Shown here: positions 38,620-58,065 of the stretch, in pieces
How positions within the stretch are numbered: position 1 is the first letter of the stretch
How the letters are laid out: every line of letters begins with the position of its first letter
Assembly: GCF_013004065.1 (NCBI RefSeq)
Contig: NZ_CP053084.1
Location: 2,108,001 to 2,172,000, forward strand
Source of the DNA: Limnobacter sp. SAORIC-580
GTDB taxonomy: Bacteria > Pseudomonadota > Gammaproteobacteria > Burkholderiales > Burkholderiaceae_B
Reading direction: 5' to 3'
Length of the DNA stretch: 64,000 bases
Made by a program: the position numbers and the translations under genes
The notes under the pieces: model-generated
What the model was told of the DNA's origin: nothing
Database searches by the model: none
Seen by the model: the letters and a program-made list of their open reading frames with translations, nothing else

Positions 38620-38703
38620 TTGAGACAAGGATGACTTCGGAAATACTAACGTAGCGTTGAACTTCATGACCCGGCTTGCCCGGGCAGGACATAACTACCA
38701 TGC

Positions 38704-38734: not shown

Positions 38735-38811
38735 TTAAAGAGAATGAATGGGGGGTTACAAATTGCGGGGTGGCGGTAGCTTGGTGTGATTACACCGCGC
38801 GGCAAGAAGAC

Positions 38812-41004: not shown

Positions 41005-41083
41005 ACTTAACGTCGGAAATGACCAAACCAAAACTTTTGTGGCGAAGCCACCTTTTGCTGTTGTGGGTCCGTATCGATTGACA
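41005..41083 (-). repeat. attC site 1 (degenerate)
   Basis: ACTTAAC (41005-41011) to ATTGACA (41077-41083), with an internal GTGGCTTCGCCAC hairpin. It is the array's low-coordinate end. Confidence 0.55.
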
Positions 41084-41085
41084 AG

Positions 41086-41427
41086 CTATGTCGCAACACT
41101 GCCTCGCTGCAAAGGCTTCCACACGTACAGAAACCAAAACACCGGCATTGAGAGTATGTTCCCCATGAACAAAACGACGGCCCAAAGCGCTTTTTTGTCT
41201 TTTGGCACATGCTCAGTCCTGAACAAGTAAATGATATAGACAATGAGTAGCCCCCCGATAAGGGCCATGGTGCCAAGATGGAGTCGGAAGAGCAGATCAA
41301 ATTTAGCCTGCATCTCTTCTTGTGTCATCTGACCACTCATCGAGTCGAACGCTGCAAAAAAATAAAATATATATACGATAGGTAAAGCCGTTGCGATTGC
41401 CAAAAGGATTGCAGCGCTTCGATTCAC
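41086..41427 (-). CDS. Cassette gene: small membrane protein
   Basis: 113 residues with three predicted transmembrane helices (AAILLAIATALPIVYIFYFFA, LGTMALIGGLLIVYIIYLF, ALWAVVLFMGNILSMPVFWFLYV). No family recognised. Stop and start lie directly against attC sites 1 and 2. Confidence 0.7.
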   Translation of the reverse strand: MNRSAAILLAIATALPIVYIFYFFAAFDSMSGQMTQEEMQAKFDLLFRLHLGTMALIGGLLIVYIIYLFRTEHVPKDKKALWAVVLFMGNILSMPVFWFLYVWKPLQRGSVAT

Positions 41428-41445
41428 ATAGGCCTCCGCTGTGTC

Positions 41446-41503
41446 GCGTAACGTTCAGAGTAACAGGCGTTGCTTGGCCTCATTGTGGGGCGTCCTGTTG
41501 ACT
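41446..41503 (-). repeat. attC site 2 (short)
   Basis: GCGTAAC (41446-41452) to GTTGACT (41497-41503), with ACAGG/CCTGT internal pairing. It overlaps the last codons of the SEL1 gene. Confidence 0.55.
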
Positions 41504-42193
41504 GCCAAGCTGGGCATCTTTGCTATTAGACGCGACTGGCGACCAATTCTCCAGCTGTTGCTTGCACGAGTCCAACTGCTCAGCCGACAACATCTGTTCT
41601 AGTTGCGGAATGACCCGATTTAGATGACTTTGTAACTGTCGTTCTCCTGGCTTCGCATACTTTCTCGCGCGCTTCGACCAAACACAGGCAGCAACCATGT
41701 CTTTTTCTCCAATTTGGCCAGAACCATGCATGTTGGCCATATTCCACATGGCTTCGGCACTGCCGAGATCAGCTGCCTGTGAATAGAGTTCAAAGCCTTT
41801 GCGACGATCTTGTTTCACTCCCAACCCCATATCGTAAAGGTAAGCCAAGTTATTAGTTGCAACGGCGTGCCCTTGTGCGGATGCCTTTTCGTACCAAGCC
41901 AACGCCTCGGAGTAGCGCTTCTCTGCTTGAAGCCCACTACCAAAGCTATTTTGGGCCTCTGCGTTACCGTTTTCAGCAGCCATGCGATACCACTTCATGG
42001 CTTCCTTTCCATCACGCGGTGCTCCTTTCCCAAAATCGTAGGCGACACCAACGCGAAATTGGGCATCTGTATCGCCGGCCTCAGCTTTCGCAATCAAAGA
42101 CTTGGTTTCACTCGAAAGAAACCAATCCGCCATTGCAATGTTTGAAAAGGTAGCTAGAACTACGAAACACAGGTGAACTAATGAAGTTTTCAT
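41480..42193 (-). CDS. Cassette gene: secreted SEL1-repeat protein
   Basis: 237 residues. A signal peptide (MKTSLVHLCFVVLATFSNIAMA) precedes about four SEL1/TPR-like repeats (DAQFRVGVAYDFGKGAPRDGKEAMKWYRMAAENG and so on) and a polar tail. SEL1 proteins scaffold protein-protein contacts, here in the periplasm. I chose the ATG at 42193 to begin with the signal peptide. Confidence 0.85.
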   Translation of the reverse strand: MKTSLVHLCFVVLATFSNIAMADWFLSSETKSLIAKAEAGDTDAQFRVGVAYDFGKGAPRDGKEAMKWYRMAAENGNAEAQNSFGSGLQAEKRYSEALAWYEKASAQGHAVATNNLAYLYDMGLGVKQDRRKGFELYSQAADLGSAEAMWNMANMHGSGQIGEKDMVAACVWSKRARKYAKPGERQLQSHLNRVIPQLEQMLSAEQLDSCKQQLENWSPVASNSKDAQLGSQQDAPQ

Positions 42194-42222
42194 GCGAGAC
42201 CGTATCGATTTTTGATTAAGAC

Positions 42223-42308
42223 GCATAACGTGAAGCTAGCCTTCGCCAGAGTATGTAGGGAACCCGACGATATAACTGTTCGGCGTCGGGTTGAGCGTAC
42301 GGTTAGGA
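42223..42308 (-). repeat. attC site 3
   Basis: GCATAAC (42223-42229) to GTTAGGA (42302-42308), with an internal CCCGACG/CGTCGGG stem. It overlaps the stop of the next gene. Confidence 0.75.
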
Positions 42309-42779
42309 GTCAACATACGTCAACAAAACGGGGGCTGATTCGATCTGGCCATTCTTAGTTGATATGTAGATCAGTGTACCGGTCATTTGCAGGCCGCTTT
42401 CTTCGTAGATGCGAGCAACGAGGGAGCCTGTGTCGATTGACCTTCTTGCCGTTGGAGCTAGCGAGATGTTTACATATGAATTCGCGACGGCCCCCACAAG
42501 CCGATAGGTCATGACTTCGGTCCTGTCTGTATTTTCGTAGGTGAAACTTCCGCTAACGCGATCCCCATTTTGCTTAAGCTCGAGCATCCCAAAAAATTTA
42601 CTATTTTTTTGATTATTAAAGTAAAGCTTCCAACGACCATCAACTCGAACTCCCCGATATATTTTGTCCTCGAACCAAGGGAGTACGACCTTTTTTAATA
42701 CCCAGCCAAGGCCTAAAAATACAAAAGTTGCGATGAGGCTACTAACAATGCCGAGGGTTACGGTTTCCCAAATACTCAC
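42303..42779 (-). CDS. Cassette gene: membrane-anchored beta-domain protein
   Basis: 158 residues. One N-terminal transmembrane helix (TLGIVSSLIATFVFLGLGWVL) is followed by a soluble beta-rich domain that looks lipocalin-like (GRWKLYFNNQKNSKFFGMLELKQNGDRVSGSFTYE). Similar short anchors with such domains occur beside defence or stress genes, but I assign no function. Confidence 0.7.
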   Translation of the reverse strand: MSIWETVTLGIVSSLIATFVFLGLGWVLKKVVLPWFEDKIYRGVRVDGRWKLYFNNQKNSKFFGMLELKQNGDRVSGSFTYENTDRTEVMTYRLVGAVANSYVNISLAPTARRSIDTGSLVARIYEESGLQMTGTLIYISTKNGQIESAPVLLTYVDS

Positions 42780-42786
42780 TTAAGGC

Positions 42787-42856
42787 TCCTAACGTTTGAG
42801 GTGACCAGCATGCAGCGGCGTTGCCCGGCGCGTCCGTGTCTAACGACCTGTTAGGT
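42787..42856 (-). repeat. attC site 4
   Basis: TCCTAAC (42787-42793) to GTTAGGT (42850-42856), 70 bp. The final core box contains the stop codon of the next gene. Confidence 0.8.
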
Positions 42857-43132
42857 ACCGCTCGGCACCTTCATAAGCGACCAGATTGTCAAAGCCGTAC
42901 TAACTATCGTGAAGACACCAAGAATAATGGTGTTCAACCTGAGAAGTCTGTTAGACAGCACGGTGTTTGAGTCAGTGAACCGAATTATGGCCCATGAGAC
43001 ATCTTCCTCGCACATCAACGCGAGCGCCATGCGCTGCTGCTCGTATACCTTGCTCCCAATTTGAGAGTCAGTGTAGAGGGTGCGCAGAAGTTCCTTTTTG
43101 GTTTTGTCCTTAATGTATTTGTCACCATCCAT
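42851..43132 (-). CDS. Cassette gene: small tail-anchored-like protein
   Basis: 93 residues. A charged helical N-terminal part (TKKELLRTLYTDSQIGSKVYEQQRMALALM) is followed by a C-terminal hydrophobic helix (LNTIILGVFTIVSTALTIWSLMKV). No family recognised. Its place is a single-gene cassette. Confidence 0.6.
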   Translation of the reverse strand: MDGDKYIKDKTKKELLRTLYTDSQIGSKVYEQQRMALALMCEEDVSWAIIRFTDSNTVLSNRLLRLNTIILGVFTIVSTALTIWSLMKVPSGT

Positions 43133-43146
43133 AATTTCTCCTCCCT

Positions 43147-43268
43147 GTCTTTAGCGATGCCTGACTCCCGCATTTACTTGGTATTGCCAGCGAAGCTGAT
43201 CGACGCCCTGGTAAACGGAGTGAACAACAGTTAGGTTGTTGATATGAGCAATATCAATAGCGTTAAAC
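43147..43268 (-). repeat. attC site 5 (poorly conserved)
   Basis: The right box GTTAAAC (43262-43268) over the next stop is good. The left box near 43147-43156 is degenerate, so this boundary is approximate. Confidence 0.4.
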
Positions 43269-44003
43269 AATTATGCCAAACCTGTTAAGGGCCCAGCTAA
43301 CGTTCTCACGGCTATTAATAAGATATTTGCCATTGCGATCTTTTTCGATGCGAAGTGACAGTTTTTCTCCACGCGCCACTATGCCCGCTTCCACCAGGCG
43401 GCGTATTTCGTTATTGGGGAAAATTAGGAAGTTATTTGTATATGCGGAGCCGGTAAATGCTCTTAGTACGAGAATGTAAAAAGTGGATGAAGAGTCTTTA
43501 GCGTCGTAGCTTCTTTGGTTTAACGAGAAGGAATACTTGTTTGCATCAGAGAGATTTGCTGTTTTTACTTGGATGTGAAAATACTTATTATCTTTGCTTG
43601 CCACGATATCTATGCCATCGTCTACTGCCATGTAGGATGAGTTGAAGCCGAAAAACAGAAGTTCAGACATCACCGCAAATTCGCCAGCTTTTCCCGTGTA
43701 GCTCGAGTTTATACGTGGCTGCTCAGGAATGACGATTTCTTTCGGTATAGAGCTACGTGGAATTTTTATCTTGTAAATTCCACGGCGAGCTCCGCCTTTT
43801 TTGTTTTTGGGCTTTAAGAAAATTGATTCTCTTTTATTCTTTGACAAGTCAGAAGAAAGAGCGGCAGAAACCTTTATGGGAAGTTGATCTGCTGGTATTT
43901 GGATGTGCGGATACTTTGAAATTAGCGCAGCCGCAATTTCATCTATATGCATTTCCTTGCGCTCATCTCGAAGCACTTCCGCTATCTGTTCAATAAGTTT
44001 CAT
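43263..44003 (-). CDS. Cassette gene: HARE-HTH plus PD-(D/E)XK-like nuclease
   Basis: 246 residues. The N terminus is a HARE-type helix-turn-helix (LIEQIAEVLRDERKEMHIDEIAAALI), a domain often fused to restriction enzymes. The C-terminal half has a restriction-endonuclease-like core: E108 in GKAGEFAVMSELL, D132 in DDGIDIVAS and QVK at 145-147. A DNA-cleaving, possibly anti-phage, role is likely. No methylase partner is present, so it is not a classical restriction-modification pair. Confidence 0.75.
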   Translation of the reverse strand: MKLIEQIAEVLRDERKEMHIDEIAAALISKYPHIQIPADQLPIKVSAALSSDLSKNKRESIFLKPKNKKGGARRGIYKIKIPRSSIPKEIVIPEQPRINSSYTGKAGEFAVMSELLFFGFNSSYMAVDDGIDIVASKDNKYFHIQVKTANLSDANKYSFSLNQRSYDAKDSSSTFYILVLRAFTGSAYTNNFLIFPNNEIRRLVEAGIVARGEKLSLRIEKDRNGKYLINSRENVSWALNRFGIIV

Positions 44004-44030
44004 GTACTTCCTTTTTGGTTGAAACGAGGA

Positions 44031-44092
44031 GCCTAACGTAAAGGCGAACTGCGCCTTGCCGCAACGTGTTCGAGTCGACCGACAAGTTAAGT
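44031..44092 (-). repeat. attC site 6
   Basis: GCCTAAC (44031-44037) to GTTAAGT (44086-44092), 62 bp. The inner part is nearly the same as sites 13 and 21. Confidence 0.85.
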
Positions 44093-44953
44093 GTCATCCT
44101 CGAACCTTAGCAAGAAGTGGCTCGCGTCAGCCACAGCGCGGCGAATCCTAACATCGCGCAATCCAGGATTCGCGAAAATGGCTTGGCGCAAACCTTCCTC
44201 ATGCTCAGATGCCATACGTGCCCCCGTGATCACGCCCGTGACCGCCGAGGGCGGAACGTTGAAGAGAGCTACTGGGTACGGCGCTGCTGCTACTGTTTCG
44301 GCCGCGTCCATCAATGGGCGAACGATGCGCCACTCACGCTCATATGCCCAGTGCGAGCTCTTTACCAGAAAAAGTTCGATGACACTCATCTCAGACAGCG
44401 GGGCACTCGGCCGACTATCACGGTAGTACACTCGACGGATGCGGCGCAGGTCGTCCACCTCAGACTTCTGCTCATGGAACCACGGATGCATCGAATCAAA
44501 CTCCACCACAAAGCCAGTGTGACTCGATGCATAGTGCGCCCACATGAGCAGACTGTCGGGCACTTCGGATAGACAGAACGCGCCGAGGACTTGATCAATC
44601 TTTCCCGTAATGAAAGCAGCAGCAACGGTCCCGACCGCTTGGAGCGTGCCCAGCATGTCCGACTGCTTTGATTGCGCCAAATGTTCAGCGAGTGCCATCA
44701 CCTGGGCATAGGTCATTCGCGTCCGCACGTGCTCCGGCTACTGCTCATATATCCTAGTCATTTCCTCCGGGAGCACCCGATTCACGACAGAAAGAAATTT
44801 CTCTCTCGTGGCGAAGGAGGTGATCTCGGGTCGACCTTCAAAGGGATCGTTGAACGTACCAAGCTGGCTGTACCGAACTCTTAGATCAGTAAGGAATGTG
44901 CAGCGCTCTGCTGCGAAGTACTTATACAGTAGTGGCGGACAGTCACGCAGCAA
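44087..44953 (-). pseudogene. Cassette gene: DUF2971 protein interrupted by an in-frame TAG
   Basis: Two collinear pieces in one frame make a full DUF2971 protein. The N-terminal part has LLYKYFAAERCTFLTDLRVRYSQLGTFNDPFEG. The C-terminal part has CLSEVPDSLLMWAHYASSHTGFVVEFD and SSHWAYEREWRIVRPL. They are split by TAG at 44738-44740 with no frame change, so one nonsense mutation broke it. No ATG follows the core box, so the original start is uncertain; a TTG at 44953 is possible. DUF2971 proteins are of unknown function and common in accessory and defence DNA. Confidence 0.8.
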
Positions 44954-44959
44954 GATGAT

Positions 44960-45031
44960 ACCTAACGACCAAGCCGCGCGGCGCAAACGAAGCGTGGCGT
45001 AGTTTGCGTCCGAACGAGTGCCTTGTTATCT
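44960..45031 (-). repeat. attC site 7
   Basis: ACCTAAC (44960-44966) to GTTATCT (45025-45031), with inner palindromic GC-rich arms. The last box covers the next stop. Confidence 0.75.
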
Positions 45032-45841
45032 TTCTTCATCTTCGATATGTACGATTGCATCCGCCTCAAACTCTGTGACCGTCTTGGTTTCGATGCCGAA
45101 TTTATAGATTGGGTGGCCTTTGAATAAAAAGAGCGGGTTACGTTCTTGATGATAACGAACTGTTTCGAAGTCTTCGGGGGTTAAAAACACCGTAACAGTG
45201 TTGCCGCCGGAACGACGAATGGCCACGATGTTGCTCGCTGGATATAGCTTGTAAACGCGCCCCTTTATTTCTTTGTATGAACCAAGATATGTTTCCCCTT
45301 TCAGCTCCACTAGATAATCTTTAGTGTCGCTTGTGAATGCGGCGACTGTCTCTTGTTGAAGCAGTGGAGAGCCTAGTGAGATCCCTTCAACACCACCAGA
45401 GGTATCAATACGGTTAACGATGTTAGCAACTTCCGTGTAGATTGAGCCGATAAATATCTTTTTATTGTCATCCTTTTCTTTATGAATGCGATCAAGGACA
45501 TTACCTGTGTAATAACCGACCACACCTGATACAACGTACTGGATTATTTGTTTTAGGTTTTCTTGAACTGTTGGATCGGCCAGAATTGGGACCAAAGCAA
45601 AAGCATCTGAACTTCTGCGCCTTTCACCAAGCTGAAGTGCTAGGCCAGGGCGTTCCTCTTTAGCTGGGAACGCCCCCTTCTTTAATCGGCCGTTTTTTGC
45701 TAAGTAAGCCTTATGGATGATTCGCTGAATGGCCAACAGAGACTCCGATAGATCATAAATGCTTACTCCATGAGTTTTTAGTTGCTCACCCGTGAACCGT
45801 ATCGAGAGCAGACCATTTTCGTATATTTCTCGTTTACTCAA
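45026..45841 (-). CDS. Cassette gene: unrecognised 271-residue protein
   Basis: Start TTG at 45841 with GGAGAG upstream. N-terminal region YENGLLSIRFTGEQLKTHG; a hydrophobic stretch near residues 100-120 (IIQYVVSGVVGYYTGNVL) could be a membrane-contacting or buried helix; the C-terminal half is beta-rich (VELKGETYLGSYKEIKGRVYKL). I cannot name a family. It is a single-gene cassette. Confidence 0.7.
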   Translation of the reverse strand: MSKREIYENGLLSIRFTGEQLKTHGVSIYDLSESLLAIQRIIHKAYLAKNGRLKKGAFPAKEERPGLALQLGERRRSSDAFALVPILADPTVQENLKQIIQYVVSGVVGYYTGNVLDRIHKEKDDNKKIFIGSIYTEVANIVNRIDTSGGVEGISLGSPLLQQETVAAFTSDTKDYLVELKGETYLGSYKEIKGRVYKLYPASNIVAIRRSGGNTVTVFLTPEDFETVRYHQERNPLFLFKGHPIYKFGIETKTVTEFEADAIVHIEDEER

Positions 45842-45857
45842 CGAACTCTCCTTATAA

Positions 45858-45956
45858 AACTAACGTTTGATGTGAGGGGGCGCGGCAGCGGCGAAGCCGC
45901 GAAGGGAACCCACAAGCGCAGCTTGTGGGCGGTCCTTATCGACGGAATTGTTAACC
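45858..45956 (-). repeat. attC site 8 (99 bp)
   Basis: AACTAAC (45858-45864) to GTTAACC (45950-45956), with a large internal CCCACAAG/CTTGTGGG stem. Confidence 0.7.
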
Positions 45957-45969
45957 AAGAAATCGGTCA

Positions 45970-46434
45970 TTATGCGAGACTAAATATTTGCAGGATGGTG
46001 CCAATAGCAAGGACGAATATAGACGCGAAGCCCAGCCTATCAAGTGTGGCCGGAAAATGATTCGCTTCAGCGAGAATCGCATTCTCGGCACTTCGTTCCT
46101 CAAGCAGACTTTCTATTTGCTCATGAAAGTTATGACTAGCTTCACTTTGAAGTTGAGTAAGCAGGCCTATTTGAAAATCAATATTTGCAATGCGGTGCAC
46201 TGCTATTGACGAGTTTTCCTTAGCTTTCGCTGACCAGAAGAAACTTAGACCGCCTAGCAACGCGGCACTGTAAACTGTAAGAATGCCTAGTTGCGCTAGT
46301 CGTAATCTGACCTCAGCGGACAACTCAGGGAATCCAGACCGCCCGAACCAAAAAAACGTCGTATACCCGATTGCGTAGAGGGCGAAAACGCCTAGCATTT
46401 TCCCAGGCTTAGGTAGTTTATGAGGATGCGCCAT
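45970..46434 (-). CDS. Cassette gene: membrane protein
   Basis: 154 residues. Two N-terminal transmembrane helices, a helical, probably coiled-coil middle (LLTQLQSEASHNFHEQIESLLEE) and a C-terminal transmembrane helix. No family recognised. Confidence 0.65.
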   Translation of the reverse strand: MAHPHKLPKPGKMLGVFALYAIGYTTFFWFGRSGFPELSAEVRLRLAQLGILTVYSAALLGGLSFFWSAKAKENSSIAVHRIANIDFQIGLLTQLQSEASHNFHEQIESLLEERSAENAILAEANHFPATLDRLGFASIFVLAIGTILQIFSLA

Positions 46435-46441
46435 GGGTATG

Positions 46442-46510
46442 GGCTAACGACCAAGCTCAGACGCGGCCACGCTGAAGGCGTGGACATCGCACCGGAGCGT
46501 CATATTAGGC
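46442..46510 (-). repeat. attC site 9
   Basis: GGCTAAC (46442-46448) to ATTAGGC (46504-46510), with a GGCCACGC/GCGTGG inner hairpin. It covers the next stop. Confidence 0.7.
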
Positions 46511-46783
46511 AGGATCGGTAACGTGCTCACGTATCCACTTCCAAGCCTCTTCACTAAGCCAACCTTGATAGGCTTTTACCACCTTAATGACCAGGAGGCG
46601 ATCGTTTTGATCGGTGTGCTTTAAAAGGCGTTCCGACAACTGATCTGCTGTTTCTAATGTGTATATCAACCAAGTTGAATCAAGGTAGTGCCACCAACTG
46701 GATGACCTCTTTAGCTCCTCGTACAAAGCGCTGTAGTTCTGGCCGGTTTTATTTAGGTCATACGAGACGCAATAAACGGTCAT
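46505..46783 (-). CDS. Cassette gene: Cas2/SinR-like small ferredoxin-fold protein
   Basis: 92 residues. MTVYCVSYDLNKTGQNYSALYEELKRSSSWWHYLDSTWLIYT has the YxVSYDL opening and WxxLxSTW pattern seen in proteins annotated SinR-like. These resemble the Cas2/VapD ferredoxin fold. No Cas1 or CRISPR repeat is near, so this is not a CRISPR adaptation gene. A small nuclease-like or toxin role is possible. GGAGAG precedes the ATG. Confidence 0.65.
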   Translation of the reverse strand: MTVYCVSYDLNKTGQNYSALYEELKRSSSWWHYLDSTWLIYTLETADQLSERLLKHTDQNDRLLVIKVVKAYQGWLSEEAWKWIREHVTDPA

Positions 46784-46802
46784 GTAACTCTCCTTTTTTG
46801 AG

Positions 46803-46892
46803 GACTAACACCTCCTAAACCCACCCCGCCCCCCGCCGTAGCCCAGCGGAGGCGTGGGGGCGGGTGCAGCGCCTTCTGGGTAGCCTTTAGCA
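46803..46892 (-). repeat. attC site 10
   Basis: GACTAAC (46803-46809) to TTTAGCA (46886-46892), with a long GC-rich hairpin between. Confidence 0.65.
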
Positions 46893-47384
46893 ACGAGCCT
46901 GACTGAAAACGCAGGAATTTCTTGAACAAACATATATCCAGCCACCTTGAGCACAACACCACCCGTTATTGCACTGCCTGGGACATTGGCAGCCGCTTGG
47001 AGGATTGAGCTTTGCATCTGACACAGACGCGACCTGCATCGCAGATGTGCCAATGACATGGACGCCCACAATCATTCTTCGATCAAGTGCAATTTCGGCA
47101 CCTACTCGAATTTTCAGGCGAACCGGCGTCCCCGGAACTCCAGATATTGGCGCATCCATTTTTGCAGACTCCACAACGTCTGACGTTTTAATTATCCAGA
47201 CATCACCGTCATCAGATGCAAGAGAAAAATTCTGACCGTCATCCGATGCAGAGACGACGTGACCTTCGACGACCACACCATCACCGTTAAAAATTACGGG
47301 CTGGTCGAATTTAACCTTCGGGAGGTCTGCGTGAGAGCATTTCGCGCCTCTGTTTGCTGCAATTGCATTATCTATTTCTTTCAT
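46887..47384 (-). CDS. Cassette gene: protein with Cys-rich C-terminal knot
   Basis: About 165 residues, from the ATG at 47384 (a G-run ribosome-binding site lies 7 bp upstream; an ATG at 47444 is also possible). A beta-rich main part is followed by a terminal 34-residue segment with eight cysteines (CQCPRQC...CC...C...C...C). This could bind metal or form disulphides, and resembles a small zinc or knottin-like module. No signal peptide is present. Confidence 0.65.
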   Translation of the reverse strand: MKEIDNAIAANRGAKCSHADLPKVKFDQPVIFNGDGVVVEGHVVSASDDGQNFSLASDDGDVWIIKTSDVVESAKMDAPISGVPGTPVRLKIRVGAEIALDRRMIVGVHVIGTSAMQVASVSDAKLNPPSGCQCPRQCNNGWCCAQGGWIYVCSRNSCVFSQARC

Positions 47385-47453
47385 TTTGTTACCCCCCCCC
47401 ACTGAATTAAACCACGAACGTTTATCAAATATCTGTAATGTCATGGCGTCATT

Positions 47454-47531
47454 GCCCAACGTTCGAGTTCACCCGAATGCGCATGCGGGCGAAGCCCGCC
47501 GTAGCACTTCAGGTGCAACAAAAGGTTAGAC
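47454..47531 (-). repeat. attC site 11
   Basis: GCCCAAC (47454-47460) to GTTAGAC (47525-47531), 78 bp, with a GCGGGC/GCCCGC inner stem. Confidence 0.85.
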
Positions 47532-47540
47532 CACACTGCC

Positions 47541-47852
47541 CTACTCTTCACCGCGAGCTGCAGCGTCCATTGCTTGCTCGGCCGACATGCCAGACTTGAA
47601 GGCAGTAAACCCACCGTGGCCTCCGTCGATGGAGAAGCAGAGCTCGCGAATTGTCTCTACCGAGTGTCCAGTATCACTGGCAATCTGGTGGTAGAGATAT
47701 TGCTGGATTGGCCGTGTTTGAGCCTTGAGACGCGCGTTGATGTAGGTCTCGAGTTCGGCGGCAATACGATTGTGATTGGCCGCCTTCTCCTTCTTTCGAG
47801 AATCAGTGCCTCGATAATCAGCGCGTGGAACATGAATAGGGTAGGTAACCAA
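47541..47852 (-). CDS. Cassette gene: small unrecognised protein (TTG start)
   Basis: 103 residues. I start it at the TTG at 47852 because a perfect AGGAGG lies 6 bp upstream. The longer frame to 47900 would begin inside the attC site. The C-terminal half (YLYHQIASDTGHSVETIRELCFSIDGGHGGFTAFK) looks like a winged-helix or Ig-binding-free regulatory motif, but I assign no family. Confidence 0.65.
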   Translation of the reverse strand: MVTYPIHVPRADYRGTDSRKKEKAANHNRIAAELETYINARLKAQTRPIQQYLYHQIASDTGHSVETIRELCFSIDGGHGGFTAFKSGMSAEQAMDAAARGEE

Positions 47853-47881
47853 CGAATGCCTCCTGTGCGTGATGACGTGCG

Positions 47882-47948
47882 GCCTAATATTTGAATTCAC
47901 CGGACTGCGCGGCTTTTCGCGCGGGTCCGGTGGAATAATGGGTTAGGC
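47882..47948 (-). repeat. attC site 12
   Basis: GCCTAAT (47882-47888) to GTTAGGC (47942-47948), with long CACCGGAC/GTCCGGTG arms. Confidence 0.85.
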
Positions 47949-47983
47949 CTGCTGACACAATGGGCCGACCGTCTAGATACATC

Positions 47984-48436: not shown

Positions 48437-48443
48437 GGTCTAG

Positions 48444-48506
48444 ACCTAACGTTGGAGTTGACCGGCGCCTTGCCGCAACGTGTCCGAGTCGACCGACCTG
48501 TTAGAC
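48444..48506 (-). repeat. attC site 13
   Basis: ACCTAAC (48444-48450) to GTTAGAC (48500-48506), 63 bp. It shares about 33 consecutive bases with site 21. Confidence 0.88.
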
Positions 48507-48507
48507 A

Positions 48508-49017: not shown

Positions 49018-49023
49018 GGTGAT

Positions 49024-49083
49024 GTCTAACGTGGAAGGTAACCGGACTGCCGCAGACAGGTCCGGTTGACGGAAGGGTTAGCC
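49024..49083 (-). repeat. attC site 14
   Basis: GTCTAAC (49024-49030) to GTTAGCC (49077-49083), 60 bp, with ACCGGAC/GTCCGGT arms. Confidence 0.88.
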
Positions 49084-49095
49084 ACATTGCTGAAA

Positions 49096-49590
49096 TTAAA
49101 GACCCACATTTGGCCAACGCTCAATATTTTTAAGTGCAAGGGTCGCCCCATCTGAGCCCAGTGAATCAGCCACACGCGCCCAATACGCAAACTTTTCACG
49201 AGATACCTCCGCCCCGTTGAGTCCATAGAGATAGTGAGACATCAATGAGTGAGCGGCAACGAGATTACCTGACTCAGCGAGCTCACCGAGCAATTCAAGA
49301 GCTCTTCGGTCTCGGACTTCATGGTCTTCTGATCCGAGGCCCATTTGGTAGGCGGAGAGGAGTTCGACCTTTGCATCATGATCCTCAGGGTGCAGGGATT
49401 GCTCGGCTTGTTTAATCCAACCATCACTTCGTTCCCGGGTTCCTTGATCGAACTCATAGTTGGCGAGCAAAATCATCGCCTCAACGTCACCACTTAAAGC
49501 ATACCGAGTCATGTACGCGACCGCCTGCTCGAGCTCTCCAGACTTCAATAGGGCCTGGGCGTGGTTACGTCGAAAGGAAAGAGCATTCAT
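49096..49590 (-). CDS. Cassette gene: SEL1/TPR-like repeat protein
   Basis: 164 residues of repeated helix pairs (HAQALLKSGELEQAVAYMTRYALSGDVEAMILLANYEFDQG, then AYQMGLGSEDHEVRDRRALELLGELAESGNLVAAHSLMSHYLYG). No signal peptide. A predicted interaction scaffold in the cytoplasm. I chose the ATG at 49590 outside the attC site. Confidence 0.7.
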   Translation of the reverse strand: MNALSFRRNHAQALLKSGELEQAVAYMTRYALSGDVEAMILLANYEFDQGTRERSDGWIKQAEQSLHPEDHDAKVELLSAYQMGLGSEDHEVRDRRALELLGELAESGNLVAAHSLMSHYLYGLNGAEVSREKFAYWARVADSLGSDGATLALKNIERWPNVGL

Positions 49591-49599
49591 ACGGCTAAC

Positions 49600-49710
49600 T
49601 ACCAACGTAACCGGCGTCGGAGCCCGGCAGGGCGGAGGGTACAAGAAAGGACCATGAGAATGCCGAAAGCATAGCCCTTGATTGCGTCCGCGTTGACCTG
49701 ACAGTTAGGC
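49600..49710 (-). repeat. attC site 15 (111 bp)
   Basis: TACCAAC (49600-49606) to GTTAGGC (49704-49710). A 134-bp non-coding tail (49711-49844) follows before the next gene stop. Confidence 0.7.
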
Positions 49711-49844
49711 TGGGGAGCGAAGGCACGGCGTTACATCTACATGTTCATACCGGTCTGGTGATAGGTGCATAACCGAATGCAAGAACATTGCAGATACTAT
49801 CGTGCCTAGCGTGAGGTGCATTGCACCTGCGATACAACGGAATC

Positions 49845-50429
49845 CTACTCAGCAGTGTCAGTTTCATCCGGGTCGGGCGGAAGCATAGTGGCAGCGTGTT
49901 CGTCGGAAAAGCGTTTGCTATCCTGAATTACTGAATCAAGTCGGATGCTCATCAAGGCAATACAGGCTCTGAACCTTGCGCCCGTTGATTCATCGTTATC
50001 AAAAAATTGTTCAAGCATCTCCCGCAGTCCCCAATTGCCCGCAAAAGGAGCAACCAATTCCCGCACTCTGTCCCTGTGGGCTCCGGCATCAAGTGTTGCA
50101 CTAGAAACCTCATGAGCGAACGAGTTACGAATGCGCCTAACAAGGTGCAACGCACGTGCAAATTCAGCTTCGATCAGTCCAAGTCGATAGCACGCATTGA
50201 TGCGAGCAGAGAATGTAGCTAGTGGGCTATCACCCTCAAGTAGTTCATCCTTCCCATTTGTCACTGGCAACAAAGTCGAGTCTAGAAGCTGGAAAAGTAG
50301 TAGATCTAGTTGAGCAGTACCAAGTATTACGGCGGCACGATCACTCTCACTTTTGAACTCGTTAGCAAACGTCTGGAATTCTTCTATGGTGCGGTGGTGG
50401 CGTAGTTTTTCTTGCGTTTTCTTGCTCAT
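49845..50429 (-). CDS. Cassette gene: MltR-family (HEPN-like) protein
   Basis: 194 residues similar to the mannitol-repressor MltR fold: ILGTAQLDLLLFQLLDSTLLP, then FSARINACYRLGLIEAEFARALHLVRRIRNSFAHE. The RNSFAH motif (R101-H106) is the HEPN-type active-site pattern. No mannitol operon is near, so the repressor role is unlikely and an RNase-like function is possible. Confidence 0.8.
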   Translation of the reverse strand: MSKKTQEKLRHHRTIEEFQTFANEFKSESDRAAVILGTAQLDLLLFQLLDSTLLPVTNGKDELLEGDSPLATFSARINACYRLGLIEAEFARALHLVRRIRNSFAHEVSSATLDAGAHRDRVRELVAPFAGNWGLREMLEQFFDNDESTGARFRACIALMSIRLDSVIQDSKRFSDEHAATMLPPDPDETDTAE

Positions 50430-50456
50430 ATTGAACTCAATTTTAATCGCTGATTA

Positions 50457-50521
50457 GCCTAACGTGCAGTAGAGGCGCCTGCGCGGCTTTCGCATATATC
50501 ACCTCGAACGCAGAGTTACTA
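50457..50521 (-). repeat. attC site 16
   Basis: GCCTAAC (50457-50463) to GTTACTA (50515-50521), 65 bp, overlapping the next stop. Confidence 0.8.
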
Positions 50522-51259
50522 CTTTGGTGGCTCATTAGCGAATCGGTATTCCAGTATGGTACCAACCAACCAGACCAATCCGGCGGGCATTATCCAGAGA
50601 AGTAGCGCAATGAGAGCAAACCTGGGTTCGGATACCGTAGCCAGGACTGTGCCTAACACCAACTCAAACAGAAGAATAATAAATGCATTTCCGTGTTCTC
50701 TCAGATGCTTGTATGACTCGACATACTGTCGGGTCTCCTCGGTGTCTTTGCTACGTGCTTTCGTTAGCTTAGTGTAGTAAGAGTACGCGCATTCGCCTTC
50801 GTTTTTAATTGCCAAACCTAGAGGCACAATCTGAATGCACAGGACAACCATGAGCAGAGTGATCGATAGGATAACCTTGTGATCTGGGGCTTCTTGACAA
50901 ACGTAGAACGCGGCAGCAGATATACCAACAAACGCGAGAGAGCCATAGAATAAATATCGATATGTGGCAGTATGCTTCGCCAAAAATACCCCACGTGTAG
51001 CGTGAAGTACGAGGACTGGCGCACTTGCAACGTAGCAGTAGGCCAATCCTAGTGCTGCGAGAAGAGAGAGAAACTGGGCGTCGAGTTTCGATACATCTGT
51101 GACTCCTGGGATGATGAGATTGCGAAGACTCGATGTATCTGATGCATTCAAGTAAAGAAGAATTGCTCCACCAATGACAGTTCCGACAAAGTACCGAACA
51201 AAGTAGAACTCCCACCAACGGCCCTCGCTCGATTTCTTTCCATTTTCTGAAAGGTTCAT
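50519..51259 (-). CDS. Cassette gene: multi-spanning membrane protein
   Basis: 246 residues with about six transmembrane helices and a charged loop (KARSKDTEETRQYVESYKHLREHG) before the last pair. No family recognised. Its ATG overlaps the stop of the HNH gene (TAATG), so translation is coupled. Confidence 0.7.
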   Translation of the reverse strand: MNLSENGKKSSEGRWWEFYFVRYFVGTVIGGAILLYLNASDTSSLRNLIIPGVTDVSKLDAQFLSLLAALGLAYCYVASAPVLVLHATRGVFLAKHTATYRYLFYGSLAFVGISAAAFYVCQEAPDHKVILSITLLMVVLCIQIVPLGLAIKNEGECAYSYYTKLTKARSKDTEETRQYVESYKHLREHGNAFIILLFELVLGTVLATVSEPRFALIALLLWIMPAGLVWLVGTILEYRFANEPPK

Positions 51260-51918
51260 TATGTATCCCTTGGTAGAAAAGGCCTAACGTTTGAAATGAT
51301 GTGGATACCTGGGATCAGCGGCCCACGAAATGGTGCAAAGCCATTAGCTTGGAGAACAGCATCTCTCAAAGTATCTGGCGCTTGGTTCCAAATGATGTAC
51401 GCCTGCTCTATTCGAGAGGCATCAAGCCGCGTGGTCGCATCGAATCCTTGGAGCAGGCTAATTGTTCCCAACGTTGAGTCGCTTAGGTAATACCATTCGT
51501 CTGCGAGGTTCGGATGCTGGCGGCTCTTGGCGACGAGAAACTCCAACATGGTCGAAATGTCTTCGGCCTTTTCTCCGCCTTGAGCATCCATAGGTAGGCC
51601 CATGTCGGGCTTACCGTTGAAACCACCGTGCACCTGTTTATGGCACTTGCGACATAGCGTAATTCCGTTCCCCGGCTCGAACTGGGCGTTTGACAAGAAG
51701 CTCTTTCGGAAGATGTGATGTGCGGCAAGGTCGCGCTTGCATTCGCACTTCACACACATGTTCCCATCACGCATCCGAACAAAGTTGCTCCAAAGCCGGA
51801 GACAAGCTAGATGCGAATGACCACACTGCAATGCACGCACTAGCCTTGAGCGCACGTCGTGTACTTGTTGGATCAAGTTTGTTATCGCAGTGCCCGATTG
51901 AGGCCTAACGTTTGACAT
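51259..51918 (-). CDS. Cassette gene: HNH endonuclease-like protein reading through an attC-like site
   Basis: 219 residues. The HNH/zinc core is MCVKCECKRDLAAHHIFRKS followed by GITLCRKCHKQVH. The protein begins MSNVRP, encoded by the core box at 51903, and near its end again reads SNVRP from a second core box (51282-51288). The C terminus therefore runs through attC-like DNA and stops in the leader of the next gene. A nuclease role is likely. Confidence 0.75.
   Translation of the reverse strand: MSNVRPQSGTAITNLIQQVHDVRSRLVRALQCGHSHLACLRLWSNFVRMRDGNMCVKCECKRDLAAHHIFRKSFLSNAQFEPGNGITLCRKCHKQVHGGFNGKPDMGLPMDAQGGEKAEDISTMLEFLVAKSRQHPNLADEWYYLSDSTLGTISLLQGFDATTRLDASRIEQAYIIWNQAPDTLRDAVLQANGFAPFRGPLIPGIHIISNVRPFLPRDT
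51282..51348 (-). repeat. attC site 17 (inside coding region, decayed)
   Basis: GCCTAAC (51282-51288) is intact. A possible partner box ATTAGCT lies at 51342-51348. The first 12 or so bases match site 18. The HNH gene is translated through it. Confidence 0.5.
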
Positions 51919-51971
51919 GATGGGCTCGAATCAGCTTGCTGGGGCGAGTTCTCTCGATGGAAGGGTTAGGC
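51903..51971 (-). repeat. attC site 18
   Basis: GCCTAAC (51903-51909) to GTTAGGC (51965-51971), 69 bp. The boxes are perfect inverted copies. Confidence 0.9.
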
Positions 51972-52505
51972 AACGCGGCTCTCCTCTGAAGATTGGAGCC
52001 GATCAAGCTCAATCTGAACATCTTGTGTCGTTGCCGAGAGAGAAGATGCCATTTCGTCAAGAGTGCGGAACAAGTTTTCGAAGGATTCGGCGTCCATTTT
52101 GCGATGCTCCCGGATCGCGATGTCGACTGTCTGCCGAAGCTGACGAATCGTGGCCGCAAGTGACATAGCGGGACCAATAAGCACATCAGGGAGGGAATGA
52201 AGCTGAACGCTAGCCGCGGCATCTCTAAGGGCAGTTAGCTCTTCGAAGTCGAAGTGTTTCTCTCCCGATGCGACTTTGTAAATATAGTCTCGACTTGAGA
52301 GTTCAGCAGCAAAGTGTGCGGCGGCCCGTGCACAGTTACGGCAGATTACGAGAAGAGATTTTGCGGCTTCCCGCCTTGCGTGGCGACTTTCCGCGCGATG
52401 TAGTGCAAGTGCACTTGTGTGCTGTTGACGTGATTGCCATACTGCAATGCATGCAGTGGCAAGAATGGCAATCACTGACCCGACGGCTTGAACCCAGGAG
52501 GCCAT
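51966..52505 (-). CDS. Cassette gene: membrane-anchored coiled-coil protein
   Basis: 179 residues. One N-terminal transmembrane helix (AVGSVIAILATACIAVWQS) is followed by a long charged, helical body. It resembles short anchored proteins often found in accessory loci. No family recognised. The stop lies in attC site 18. Confidence 0.65.
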   Translation of the reverse strand: MASWVQAVGSVIAILATACIAVWQSRQQHTSALALHRAESRHARREAAKSLLVICRNCARAAAHFAAELSSRDYIYKVASGEKHFDFEELTALRDAAASVQLHSLPDVLIGPAMSLAATIRQLRQTVDIAIREHRKMDAESFENLFRTLDEMASSLSATTQDVQIELDRLQSSEESRVA

Positions 52506-52578
52506 CTCGCTGCTTGAAAGCTCAGTTGTTATGCAAAGTAGAGACACTGTGTCGCCGAAGAGTGAAATGAATCGTGTT

Positions 52579-52653
52579 GCCTAACGCCTCAATAACCGAC
52601 GCAGCTTTGCTGCGTCCGGCGCCGAAGGCGCGCAGTTGATTGATTTGTTATGC
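52579..52653 (-). repeat. attC site 19
   Basis: GCCTAAC (52579-52585) to GTTATGC (52647-52653), 75 bp, with a CGACGCAGC/GCTGCGTC hairpin. Confidence 0.85.
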
Positions 52654-52656
52654 AAT

Positions 52657-53304
52657 TTAACTACCCCCATCTCTTTGGTTAATCCCATCAATTTTTTCTT
52701 GGGGCAGAGATGAATATAACTCATCGATTTCTTTAGGCTCGGTAATCATTTTTGTGCTGATAAAATTAACAAGCTTAAATAGCGTATTTACAGTATCTCT
52801 ATCATCCTTGAGATCAATAGAGCCTGGATGTACAGCATCATTTCCTATGACTCTTACGCTATCTAGAGCTTTTTGAACTCCCGAAGGAAGTCCCTCTTTT
52901 ACCAATGCAGCAATGTCTGAGTTAATATTTTTTCCGGGCTGCCCAAGATGAGCGCAAAGCTTTTGAATTGCCAGCCTCAAAAGTGCTGCTGCTCCTCTCG
53001 GAGACAAATTGCTTATCGTTCTAGCCTCTTCATAATCTTGTCTGATTTCTTCGGGAAGATCGGGGTTTGGAGGTTGCGCAGATGAATGGATTGGAAAAAT
53101 GACTTTTTCACCTAACCAGATAGTGGGTGAGGAACAGTTTTCGCAATCTGAGACTAGGAATTTCTCATTGTGATACTGAGTGCCAAATCCATTCTCACTT
53201 GATGCTCCGCCCATGAAGTACCATGATTGTTTTGCGTAAACATGGCAATTTGGACAATTGAATGCTCTCGCCGCTCTTTTGGGTGGAATATATTCGGCTT
53301 TCAT
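52657..53304 (-). CDS. Cassette gene: DUF4145 zinc-ribbon protein
   Basis: 215 residues. A CPNC...CENC zinc ribbon (residues about 17-60) leads to the DUF4145 domain (SPRGAAALLRLAIQKLCAHLGQPGKNINSDIAALVKEGLP, then VIGNDAVHPG). DUF4145 is HEPN-related and common in restriction and defence islands. A single-gene cassette. Confidence 0.85.
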   Translation of the reverse strand: MKAEYIPPKRAARAFNCPNCHVYAKQSWYFMGGASSENGFGTQYHNEKFLVSDCENCSSPTIWLGEKVIFPIHSSAQPPNPDLPEEIRQDYEEARTISNLSPRGAAALLRLAIQKLCAHLGQPGKNINSDIAALVKEGLPSGVQKALDSVRVIGNDAVHPGSIDLKDDRDTVNTLFKLVNFISTKMITEPKEIDELYSSLPQEKIDGINQRDGGS

Positions 53305-53326
53305 TCAATCCCTCGTTTCTATATTT

Positions 53327-53395
53327 GCACAACACCGTGCTCTGAGGCAAACCGAAGCGAAGCGTAGATTTGTCCCTAGCAGCACTTTGTTAGAA
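53327..53395 (-). repeat. attC site 20
   Basis: GCACAAC (53327-53333) to GTTAGAA (53389-53395), 69 bp. Confidence 0.7.
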
Positions 53396-53399
53396 GCCA

Positions 53400-54386
53400 C
53401 TATGACAGCATATATTTTTTGAATAAATTTGCCCTATTAACACGCGCTTTTCTGTCATTCGTACCCGAATACATTGAATGATAGAAGAGGCCATGATCAG
53501 TTTCTTTTAGATTCTTGCTGCTAAGAACATTAGCATCAAATGTATTCAGACGTTCCACGAAATCATTGGGTACATACTCTACCAAACAAAGCTCTACGAC
53601 AAGCGTGAAAAAGCATGATTTTCTAAACCAAATTGAATCTATATTCAGCCCCAACCTCTGAATCACTGAAATTGCATTAAGAATCTGAGCCTTTATTTTA
53701 TGTGAATCCGAAAATTCATCATTAAACTCTGCCACACACTTTTCAACCTCCGTATCACGAGGATAATATCCTCCTCGCACCAATGTTGACATGACTTGCA
53801 AGAAGAAATGCACATCGGCCATTCTAGTGAATTCAGATTCATGGAAAACACCGAAAGCATCTAGCTCTACTTCATCTGCTAGTTCTTTCGCAACTTGTAT
53901 AAACTTGCCATCATAAATCGCGTTATGAATTTCAATATCATCAAGCTTAAATTTTGTGAGATTTATACGCCGAAATATCTCTCTCACTAAATTATCATCA
54001 ACTTTTCCAATATCACGAACAACGATTTGATACGATAGAAAATCCTCGCGCTGCTCTTCAGTAAGCTTATCGAAGCTAGGAACAATCTTAAGTTCCTTTT
54101 TGAAGTCGTTTTCTATATATTTTTTAATCGTAGTTAAGCGCTGCTGCCCATCTATTACTTTTTGCGTAGTTCTAAGTTTTTTAGTATCAGTTACGCCCTG
54201 GCAAACATAGATTTCAGGGAATGGAAACCCATGCAGGATAGTATCCAGAAACTCTTCTTGGTGTTCATGAGTCCAGACAAATTTTCGCTGGAAATCTGGG
54301 GTCAACTCCAACCGATTTGTATCTATTTTTTCATAGATGTCTGCTATGGTCGGATTGGTTACAGACGGCTTGATCTGTGTAGTCAT
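53400..54386 (-). CDS. Cassette gene: DUF262 protein
   Basis: 328 residues. A DUF262/ParB-like domain has PDFQRKFVW (residues 30-38) and the hallmark DGQQRLTTI (79-87). The rest is helical, without the C-terminal HNH nuclease (DUF1524) that GmrSD-type proteins carry. The upstream nucleotidyltransferase overlaps it by ATGA, so the two are one unit. DUF262 domains are typical of anti-phage proteins. This pair is A/T-richer than its neighbours. Confidence 0.85.
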   Translation of the reverse strand: MTTQIKPSVTNPTIADIYEKIDTNRLELTPDFQRKFVWTHEHQEEFLDTILHGFPFPEIYVCQGVTDTKKLRTTQKVIDGQQRLTTIKKYIENDFKKELKIVPSFDKLTEEQREDFLSYQIVVRDIGKVDDNLVREIFRRINLTKFKLDDIEIHNAIYDGKFIQVAKELADEVELDAFGVFHESEFTRMADVHFFLQVMSTLVRGGYYPRDTEVEKCVAEFNDEFSDSHKIKAQILNAISVIQRLGLNIDSIWFRKSCFFTLVVELCLVEYVPNDFVERLNTFDANVLSSKNLKETDHGLFYHSMYSGTNDRKARVNRANLFKKYMLS

Positions 54387-55000
54387 TGATTCTTCCTCAG
54401 ATCCTTGGATCTTTTAATATCTTTTATACCCGAGAGCGTATAATTTTCTAGGTGGCTGTAGCTCTTGAAAACGCCAGCATTTACACGATAATTTCCAACC
54501 TCTGACTTACCATCGGATATGCTCCTGAAGAATTCAAACCAATCGTCTTTTATCGCTTTCATCTGGAATGAAATAGGTAATTTGTCTGGTCGAATCCAAC
54601 CAAGAGCAACATATTCTAAAAATGAATGATACAACTCAATCTCTCTGACATGGACAACAGCTCGATTCTTTCGAATCATCATTTGATATTCAGCCACACT
54701 CAACATCATTTGTTCAAATAGACTAGGTGACACGAGAGCTACATCAATGTCTGAGTCGTAATCAAACTGCTTCTTTTTTAAAGGGCTAAATCCTAACTTT
54801 GCAGACCCTGTAATATATATTTCGTGAAATGGTATGCAATATTTATTGGCGATTCTCTTCCTAAACTCATAGAACTCTTCGTCCCGCGCACTGAATATAT
54901 ATGGCGTGCCGTGCAACACATGCTTCCGACAAAAATCCAGCACAGATTCATCGTCATTTTTTGATACAAGTTCAGAATTAAACTCTTCTAAATCCATCAA
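54383..55000 (-). CDS. Cassette gene: nucleotidyltransferase-fold protein paired with DUF262
   Basis: 205 residues. The Pol-beta-type nucleotidyltransferase core is present: GSAKLG at 65-70 and D82-x-D84-x-D86 (YDSDIDVAL). It could transfer nucleotides to a protein, RNA or small molecule. It is shorter than CBASS cyclases (about 300+ residues) and resembles none I can name. It overlaps the DUF262 gene by 4 bp. Two genes in one cassette are unusual and suggest a functional pair. Confidence 0.8.
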   Translation of the reverse strand: MMDLEEFNSELVSKNDDESVLDFCRKHVLHGTPYIFSARDEEFYEFRKRIANKYCIPFHEIYITGSAKLGFSPLKKKQFDYDSDIDVALVSPSLFEQMMLSVAEYQMMIRKNRAVVHVREIELYHSFLEYVALGWIRPDKLPISFQMKAIKDDWFEFFRSISDGKSEVGNYRVNAGVFKSYSHLENYTLSGIKDIKRSKDLRKNQ

Positions 55001-55031
55001 TATATCCTAGGTGTTGAATCGGCTTGCTTCT

Positions 55032-55100
55032 TGACGCAAAGGTGACCGGCGCGTTACGGTAAGGGGCCGCAACGTGTCCGAGTCGACCGACCTGTTAGCA
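55032..55100 (-). repeat. attC site 21
   Basis: A degenerate left box near 55032, and GTTAGCA (55094-55100) on the right. Its inner half is identical to site 13 over about 33 bases. Confidence 0.75.
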
Positions 55101-55101
55101 C

Positions 55102-55562
55102 TCATGGCGCGTGCGCCACGAAGAAGGTTTTCCAAACGGTGAGAACGTCCTGAACAAAATCGAGTAAGTTCAACACCGTGCCGTCATCCAAGGTGATCAC
55201 GATCTCCTCCTCCCCTTCGCCATAGCCGCCCATACCGTAGCGTCCGCCATCGAAACCACTCTCAGTATCCGCGCCTTTGGTAATGGGCGTTCGTGAAGTG
55301 AGGGTGAAGTGCTTCACCGAATTCGCTAGATCGCCACAGACCTTTAAAGTGCGGTCCGCACAGAGGGCTTGAACTACGGAGCGCTGCTTAGCGGCACCCG
55401 GGACGGCAGGATCGTCTTGATCCAGTCTATGAGCGCGTAGCCCGTCAGGACAAAATTCATGAAGCGGTCTCCCGTGAGCGACTCGTCGAGGAGCAAGGTA
55501 GCGTCGCGCTCCAGCTTGCTGAGGAGATCGCGTGCAGTATTGAACCCAAAAGTGAGTGCCAT
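55102..55562 (-). pseudogene. Leading cassette gene, frameshifted by one missing base
   Basis: Reading from ATG 55562 (MALTFGFNTARDLLSKLERDATLL ... TGYALIDWIK) the frame soon hits a stop near 55374. In the next frame the protein continues (DPAVPGAAKQRSVVQALC...HFTLTSRTPITKG...GEEEIVITLDDGTVLN...TWKTFFVAHAP). Joining them needs one extra base around 55423-55426, as if AAGAACGAT had become AAGACGAT. The whole would be about 153 residues. The function of this cassette family is unknown to me. Confidence 0.75.
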
Positions 55563-55567
55563 GATGA

Positions 55568-55939
55568 GATCTAACTAGTTTTATCGAACAACAACGGCGA
55601 TATCCATCTATCCGAACATCACCCCTGAGAAAACCGCACCTCACCATAGCTACCGCAGGCCACCACCAAAGCCTGCTCTTGTAAGGCATGTAAATTAATT
55701 AGTACATAAACTAAATTAATTGTCATACAACAGCAAGCAATCCACTCCCCTCACCCCACTGCTTAATAAATAATCAACCCCTACAACCCGCACCCAGCTT
55801 TACTCTCCGCCGAATAGCATCACCTACCTCCCCCTCATTTGAAGGGCGGTGTAACTGAACTAAAAAACTCGCGGAAATAAAAAAACCGGACCACCCCGCT
55901 ACGAATGATCCGGTTTTCAGAAAGAAAAAATTATTGTTT
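55568..55939. other. Leading end of the array: half-site and non-coding leader
   Basis: ATCTAAC (55568-55574) is the outermost core-type box. The next 365 bp contain no credible gene. There is an A/T-rich patch (55690-55735) with AAATTAATT twice as a direct repeat, a possible promoter or attI relic. No intI remnant is recognisable. Confidence 0.45.
55882..55917 (-). terminator. Terminator of the metal-dependent hydrolase gene
   Basis: AAAACCGGA and TCCGGTTTT arms with an 18-nt loop, then a T-run on the minus strand just after the gene's stop. Confidence 0.75.
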
Positions 55940-58036: not shown

Positions 58037-58065
58037 ATTTCAACTACGTTGGCAATTAAGGCGAA

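Follow-up and report, generated by a model that had tools for sequence, protein, structure and literature searches.

How does an array of gene cassettes come to stand in a chromosome that has no integron integrase? The question is raised by a stretch of 64,000 nucleotides from Limnobacter sp. SAORIC-580 (G000:C1:2108001-2172000; hereafter the window), part of a single contig of 3,297,222 bases. About 20 genes, all on the minus strand, run from 55562 down to 41086, and between them lie imperfect inverted repeats bounded by RYYYAAC and GTTRRRY. A first-pass annotation of the window had called this a cluster of attC sites lacking integron-integrases (CALIN), a relic or satellite of a chromosomal integron that carried a stock of defence-like genes. 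Here we show that the array is real and that the integrase gene (intI) has been lost while its attachment site, attI, was retained. We also find copies of the same attI at the head of other intI-free arrays across the genus, which suggests that such sites may be fed by an integrase from elsewhere.

The window array is a true attC cassette array. By hand we delimited 21 attC sites of 58-118 nt on the minus strand, between 41005 and 55100. To prevent circularity, a covariance model (R1) was trained on seven attC sites from four loci in three other genera and run over the 64-kb window with filters off. At E<=10 it gave 20 matches: 14 of the 21 hand-called sites on the array strand, four array sites on the opposite strand, and two matches outside the hand-called sites, at 45412 (8.9 bits) and 59618 (8.8 bits). 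All 11 matches of at least 14.5 bits were array sites on the array strand. A second model (R2) was built from 104 attC sites of the genus, some of them from this array, and is hence not independent; it recovers 17 of the 21 sites at E<=2, missing those at 53327, 51282, 46803 and 43159. In a scan of the whole G000 genome that scored the best 150 of 520 initial candidates, R2 gave 14 matches at E<=10, 13 in the array and one at C1:3173442. The core boxes are degenerate at several sites (55029, 51282, 47882, 43159 and 41005). The first-pass annotation had counted about 20 same-strand genes with 21 attC-like sites and had set a floor of three model-supported sites for an array; the count is confirmed, and the 14 sites found by R1 lie far above the floor. 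Two simpler detectors were set aside. A scan for box pairs with duplex energy was too loose to discriminate (48 candidates in 38-56 kb, against a mean of 23 and a maximum of 34 in shuffled sequence), and a home-made attC scanner, which found eight window sites (seven in the array region and one at 26766), was superseded by the covariance models. At Rfam gathering scores no family matched the window, and ARAGORN found no tRNA there.

Where does the array begin? The region first annotated (41005..55574) stands, but its upper end does not, because an attI core reaches 55620. The same 50-nt element lies between intI and the first cassette in Limnobacter genome G112 (L014/L151) and in Limnobacter sp. 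P1 (L027), so that here, as in a complete integron, attI adjoins the first cassette (55571-55620). A complete integron also has a functional intI, of which only the final codons are left in the window (55642-55654). About 1.04 kb is missing relative to P1, and this is the intI-bearing stretch, after which the window continues into the 50-nt attI. The same final codons (GGTAGCTATGGTG or a close variant) are kept in the window, L026, L028, L029, L030, L031, L163 and L145, with continuations that then differ; the window and L026 have one deletion in common. Against class 1 attI1 (of L007), the element has a global alignment score of 4.0, reached by 15 of 2000 shuffles. Its core also holds an inverted repeat followed by T-rich sequence (55596-55623), which a scan flags as terminator-like.

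The absence of a tyrosine recombinase, noted at first for the array, holds for the array itself and extends to an integron integrase anywhere in the genome. In the 3.30-Mb single contig, the integron-integrase profile TIGR02249 reached at best 78.4 bits (cut-off 265), and the IntI protein of the genus gave only short matches, the best with E 1.1e-16 over 64 residues, which look like Xer or phage-type recombinases. With an attC array and no integron integrase nearby or elsewhere in G000, the CALIN label is borne out.

In contrast, relatives keep an open intI beside the same hydrolase gene that adjoins the window array, both in G112 (in the order attI, intI, hydrolase in L014) and in P1. The P1 gene has 338 codons including the stop, and its product is 91.7% identical to G112 IntI, which passes the integron-integrase profiles TIGR02249 (444.1 bits, cut-off 265) and NF011946 (443.4 bits, cut-off 435), matches IntI4 (PDB 2a3v) with E 4.5e-79 and, among the matches listed, is 60.9% identical to plasmid IntI1. 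We examined 16 Limnobacter genomes, two of them 65% and 85% complete. Intact intI occurs in one of the 16 (G112), and fragments in G187, G131, G220, G208, G147 and G066. A CTGT-N8-ACAG box, which is LexA-like (SOS), stands at the intI start in seven of 12 loci scanned (L027, L139, L151, L172, L143, L137 and L163); the exact motif is absent from the other five (L171, L154, L155, L026 and the window). The comparison with relatives thus identifies the window array as the Limnobacter chromosomal integron in its usual place beside the hydrolase gene, with intI deleted and attI kept. The first-pass reading of a chromosomal-integron relic was right in this respect, and it was incomplete, missing the attI, the deletion scar and a second attI-headed array at C1:3.17 Mb.

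That second array was not the only one. When the genus was searched with the attI region, further copies surfaced at other loci. With a sequence model (R3) trained on 31 copies, nearly all of which are among the strong matches reported here, and with at most the best 150 initial candidates scored per genome, we found 56 matches at E<=0.1. They come from 15 of the 16 genomes, and 36 of them, in 14 genomes, score 50 bits or more. An intI or fragment is within reach of eight of the 36 strong copies by protein search, and of none of the other 28. G000 has two copies, one in the window and one at C1:3172492-3172541, and its only attC match outside the window lies 0.9 kb behind the latter. In a sample of 200 genomes of the family, searched with stricter filters, 12 matched, ten of them Limnobacter and two from other genera with partial matches of about 22 bits. 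A genome of another genus that has intI (G004) carries a single attI-bearing stretch, found in one of 11 genomes of that genus, which indicates that several attI ports per genome are not a general rule.

The dispersed copies are placed as attI sites should be, heading attC arrays in the right orientation, with similarity between copies stopping at the core. Downstream attC sites are present in 35 of 38 attI loci. The strongest 198 of 210 R2 matches were used for this count; 181 lie in the 38 attI loci, every one of them downstream and in the orientation of attI, with none in 237,487 upstream bases, and the other 17 lie in three hydrolase loci without attI. Among 12 further loci, mostly with weaker attI, five have attC matches (six in all, each downstream in orientation, one of them strong, in L204). 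Whole-genome attC scans of four genomes, with the best 150 candidates scored in each, gave 68 matches (14 in G000, 29 in G112, 15 in G066 and 10 in G147). Of these, 61 lie behind an attI copy, and the other seven belong to the G147 hydrolase-locus array, whose attI is gone.

The copies fall into two families. Upstream of attI, A units carry intI or its fragments, often with the CTGT-N8-ACAG box, and past the end of intI their sequence is conserved. B units lack intI, measure 265 nt and have a recurrent left end; they gave 31 matches in 12 of the 16 genomes, 28 reaching the attI end and 20 at full length, and no intI fragment was found at any of them by protein search. We rejected an early candidate in which B units had the A left end, as by blastn the two have only the 50-nt attI in common, and outside attI the 215-nt B leader gives no blastn match to the hydrolase loci. 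Among 16 B copies (the divergent L142 left out), every one of the 120 pairs agrees better in attI than in the leader, with mean identities of 88.3% and 66.9%. This is as expected if the site is used, and suggests such use. L142, L161 and L162 fit either family poorly. L156 has two inverted B units about 6 kb apart (9882-10105 and 16018-16281), one of them without a recognisable attI core, and a divergent B pair lies at G066:C3:823726-824447. A transposon with two B left ends is unsupported in general, as the inverted second copy occurs at only one locus searched (L156). There was no clean empty site at the lipase-locus relatives without a listed unit (L182-L188) or at L195, and none of the loci searched paired an empty site with a B unit whose two ends were exact. 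A search of 72,556 plasmids and 50,697 phages at E<=1e-5 turned up no B unit.

Have cassettes moved through these sites? An orthologous B-type attI lies beside a lipase gene in five species (G000, G216, G175, G196 and G187), and all five have different first cassettes there: the first 700 nt behind these sites gave no blastn match longer than 100 nt to one another or to the other fetched loci. The far flank is conserved where it can be compared (G196 and G187). In CACIAM 66H1 the junction of the intI deletion at the hydrolase locus is identical to that of the window, but the first cassette is a different one. The P1 array holds a cassette 98.9% identical to it, preceded by ten attC sites, and the homology begins exactly at GTTAGGC, which follows attI in one genome and an unrelated attC in the other. 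Over 2 kb, the identity of the two chromosomes is 96.7%, against the 98.9% of the cassette. With the window, 66H1 and P1 forming a trichotomy in the tree, a deletion of intI in the common ancestor of the window and 66H1 is likely but no more than that. The 66H1 first cassette is best read as an insertion after intI loss. Together with the segment common to the window and G216 (see the table), these exchanges, with their breakpoints at core sites, look site-specific. Cassette content differs between relatives, so the array is not the conserved operon that the first-pass annotation had named as the alternative.

Altogether, we consider it quite probable that the window holds an ancestral integron with intI deleted, and that dispersed attI ports have been fed by IntI from elsewhere. 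The hydrolase-locus region would be the ancestral Limnobacter chromosomal integron, in which a deletion presumably ran from the promoter side of intI to its last codons and left attI and the array in place. attI would have multiplied in the genus, as A units and as intI-free B units spread over the chromosome, each port taking up cassettes between the G and TT of the attI core. IntI could recombine attC circles with any attI port, those away from intI being fed in trans. In species that keep intI, one intact copy may supply the enzyme; in species such as SAORIC-580, the supply would be an incoming integrase, or none. The dispersed intI-free attI copies and the five unrelated first cassettes suggest that several ports are served in trans by an integrase. 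We infer recombination at the copies, an integrase in trans as its agent, and use as the reason why attI is conserved. A stronger version, a multi-port integron in which one SOS-controlled integrase, present in few species, serves dispersed attI ports that are under selection and still exchange cassettes after intI deletion, seems to us an even bet.

Alternatively, several independent integrons may have been acquired at different sites, each of which lost intI and kept attI, with arrays filled before the loss and no capture in trans. A units away from the hydrolase locus do carry intI fragments in varied states of decay (L137, L139, L143, L154, L159 and L172), which speaks for this history. 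However, the B leader has no blastn match at the hydrolase loci, no B unit has an intI fragment by protein search, and at an orthologous B site each of five species has its own first cassette, so we regard independent acquisition as unlikely. Less likely again is that the 50-nt sequence belongs to a mobile repeat resembling a miniature inverted-repeat transposable element, or to a gene-less cassette carrying a core site, its identity as attI being secondary. The constant length and recurrent left end of the B unit, and the inverted second copy at L156 without an attI core, would fit; however, the same 50 nt separates intI from the first cassette in G112 and P1, conservation is concentrated in those 50 nt, and arrays run from their right edge. 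An ordinary CALIN, with cassettes at random attG-like sites or a decayed integron with an unremarkable start, is very improbable: Xanthomonas and Shewanella often have CALINs off the canonical locus, as far as the excerpts of PMC12444791 and PMC9229058 report, but in Limnobacter this is contradicted by arrays that begin at a conserved attI and not at random sites.

Several observations weigh against an ancestral integron with ports fed in trans. Three of the 38 attI copies have no downstream attC (L146, L158 and L144, whose contig ends 1 kb further on), and neither do seven of the 12 further, mostly degenerate copies. Scanned for sigma-70 promoters, neither the window attI nor one B unit showed a promoter-like site. 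Supply in trans is hypothetical in most species, because intact intI is present in only one of the 16 genomes and in P1. One B-headed array with the same first cassette occurs in three genomes (L138, L148 and L170), and L138 and L170 are 97% identical in the array and 83% in the upstream flank. The unit and its whole array thus seem to have been transferred together from one species to another, and some array differences can come from such homologous exchange. In addition, several genomes are drafts or metagenome-assembled genomes (MAGs) with possibly misbinned contigs (G220 has 6% contamination), and intI could sit on a plasmid that the G000 assembly lacks. Apart from these points, the window copy itself may be decaying, since it differs from the 66H1 attI at two positions where at least 90% of 31 aligned copies agree, and the array has broken attC boxes and an in-frame stop in a DUF2971 cassette gene.

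Integrase-less arrays and decayed chromosomal integrons are already known, according to the partial texts of PMC12444791, PMC9229058 and PMC8618304. As excerpted, the CALINs and single attC sites lacking integron-integrases (SALINs) of Xanthomonas and Shewanella are similar in being attC sites without an adjoining intI, at several chromosomal places, some conserved in position between species (PMC12444791, PMC9229058). Most Limnobacter arrays, in contrast, begin at a copy of the genus attI. The ilvD-locus integron of Xanthomonas, as described in the excerpt of PMC12444791, likewise has one ancestral place, progressive loss of integrase activity and an array that is kept, whereas Limnobacter also has attI ports at several other loci and shows cassette exchange next to an intI deletion that was probably inherited. 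In the delta-attI-type cassettes of class 1 and 2 integrons, the excerpt of PMC12901181 reports relocated pieces of attI, still used by IntI1, and so again attI pieces in unusual places; those cassettes end in attI pieces, whereas in Limnobacter attI with its 215-nt leader heads arrays at chromosomal loci. They do show that IntI1 is able to move pieces of attI, which bears on how attI may have spread. Insertion at attG also puts cassettes outside the main integron. However, attG sites are neither attC nor attI (excerpts of PMC12444791 and PMC12901181), and the Limnobacter site is a conserved attI. IntegronFinder 2.0, in the part of its description seen (PMC9024848), notes that attI beyond class 1 is poorly described and not detected, which means that attI-headed CALINs would be overlooked. 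In the open-licence literature searched, no title or abstract opening described Limnobacter integrons or attI copies dispersed in this way, and the excerpt of PMC12690207 held nothing bearing on dispersed attI.

The cassettes and flanks of the window array are summarised in the table. PADLOC was run on 20 open reading frames (ORFs), which do not include every array ORF. Three matched below E 1e-3 and 17 did not, among them weak matches of E 0.002 (the second piece of the split DUF2971 gene) and E 0.008. The first-pass idea of a stock of defence-like genes is thus upheld for three of the 20 and not for the other 17. The DUF2971 (PDC-S31) gene, at 44087-44986, consists of two same-frame ORFs separated by TAG at 44738-44740. 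About 135 nt at 49710-49845, between the gene at 49845-50429 and attC 7, contain a box-like GCTAGGC and may be a gene-less cassette.

Table. Features of the window (window coordinates; R1, R2 and R3 are the models described in the text).
Feature	Position	Strand	Evidence and remarks
attC 1 (degenerate R')	55029..55100	-	hand call; R1 10.4 bits; R2
attC 2	53327..53395	-	hand call only
attC 3	52579..52653	-	hand call; R1 30.2 bits
attC 4	51903..51971	-	hand call; R1 20.8 bits
attC 5 (degenerate R'')	51282..51349	-	hand call only; R' edge is the exact boundary of the segment common to G216
attC 6	50457..50521	-	hand call; R2 17.6 bits
attC 7	49593..49710	-	hand call; R1 14.5 bits
attC 8	49024..49083	-	hand call; R1 21.1 bits
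attC 9	48444..48506	-	hand call; R1 33.6 bits
attC 10 (R' ATTAGGC)	47882..47948	-	hand call; R1 19.6 bits
attC 11	47454..47531	-	hand call; R1 18.7 bits
attC 12 (weak)	46803..46891	-	hand call only
attC 13	46442..46510	-	hand call; R1 17.6 bits
attC 14	45858..45956	-	hand call; R1 20.8 bits
attC 15	44960..45030	-	hand call; R2 16.6 bits
attC 16	44031..44092	-	hand call; R1 17.5 bits
attC 17 (R' GTCAGGC)	43159..43236	-	hand call only
attC 18	42787..42856	-	hand call; R1 23.3 bits
attC 19	42223..42308	-	hand call; R1 12.4 bits
attC 20	41446..41503	-	hand call; R2 21.0 bits
attC 21, terminal (degenerate R'')	41005..41086	-	hand call; R1 8.6 bits; R2
attI core (50 nt)	55571..55620	-	R3 61.4 bits; core GTTAG is the border to the first cassette
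intI deletion scar	55630..55641	-	about 1.04 kb of Limnobacter sp. P1 absent; junction identical in CACIAM 66H1 (L026)
intI final codons (GGTAGCTATGGTG), sole gene remnant seen	55642..55654	-	read as the reverse complement, codes for TIATA, the tail of the G112/P1 integrase
Left-end sequence common to other intI-type (A) units	55642..55804	-	sequence comparison
Segment common to G216	49595..51290	-	97.3% identity; ends at core sites on both sides, different flanks
PD-T7-4 family cassette gene (DUF4145)	52657..53304	-	PADLOC E 1.4e-89
GmrSD_N, NsnA-like cassette gene	53400..54386	-	PADLOC E 5.4e-38; overlaps 54383-55000, two-gene cassette
PDC-S31/DUF2971 cassette gene piece	44087-44728	-	PADLOC E 2.5e-30; gene split by a stop
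PF10118 metal-dependent hydrolase gene, adjoins integron platform	55940..56854	-	comparison with relatives' loci
VF530 gene, distal flank	38812..39054	-	relatives on the distal side of the same locus in several genomes

The neighbouring genes place the window in Limnobacter, Burkholderiaceae; for the PF10118 hydrolase, eight relatives at 94-99% identity comprise five named Limnobacter and three MAGs with coarser names. At the far end of the array lie an HI1420-type antitoxin gene and a short ORF upstream (38154-38811), and relatives of this antitoxin adjoin attC sites in L145 and L140. Two stretches of the window, 58040-59732 (which holds a 500-aa ORF at 58066-59568) and 61448-61910, are absent from the equivalent place in L026 (66H1) and L029 (L. 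alexandrii).

Integrons are usually described with one attI beside intI, and arrays without intI are taken as debris or as off-target insertions. In Limnobacter, intI-free arrays begin at dedicated, conserved attI ports, which offers a concrete route by which CALINs could form and maybe stay active. Are CALINs dead relics, or satellites fed in trans? With few ports per genome, this environmental genus makes the question directly testable.

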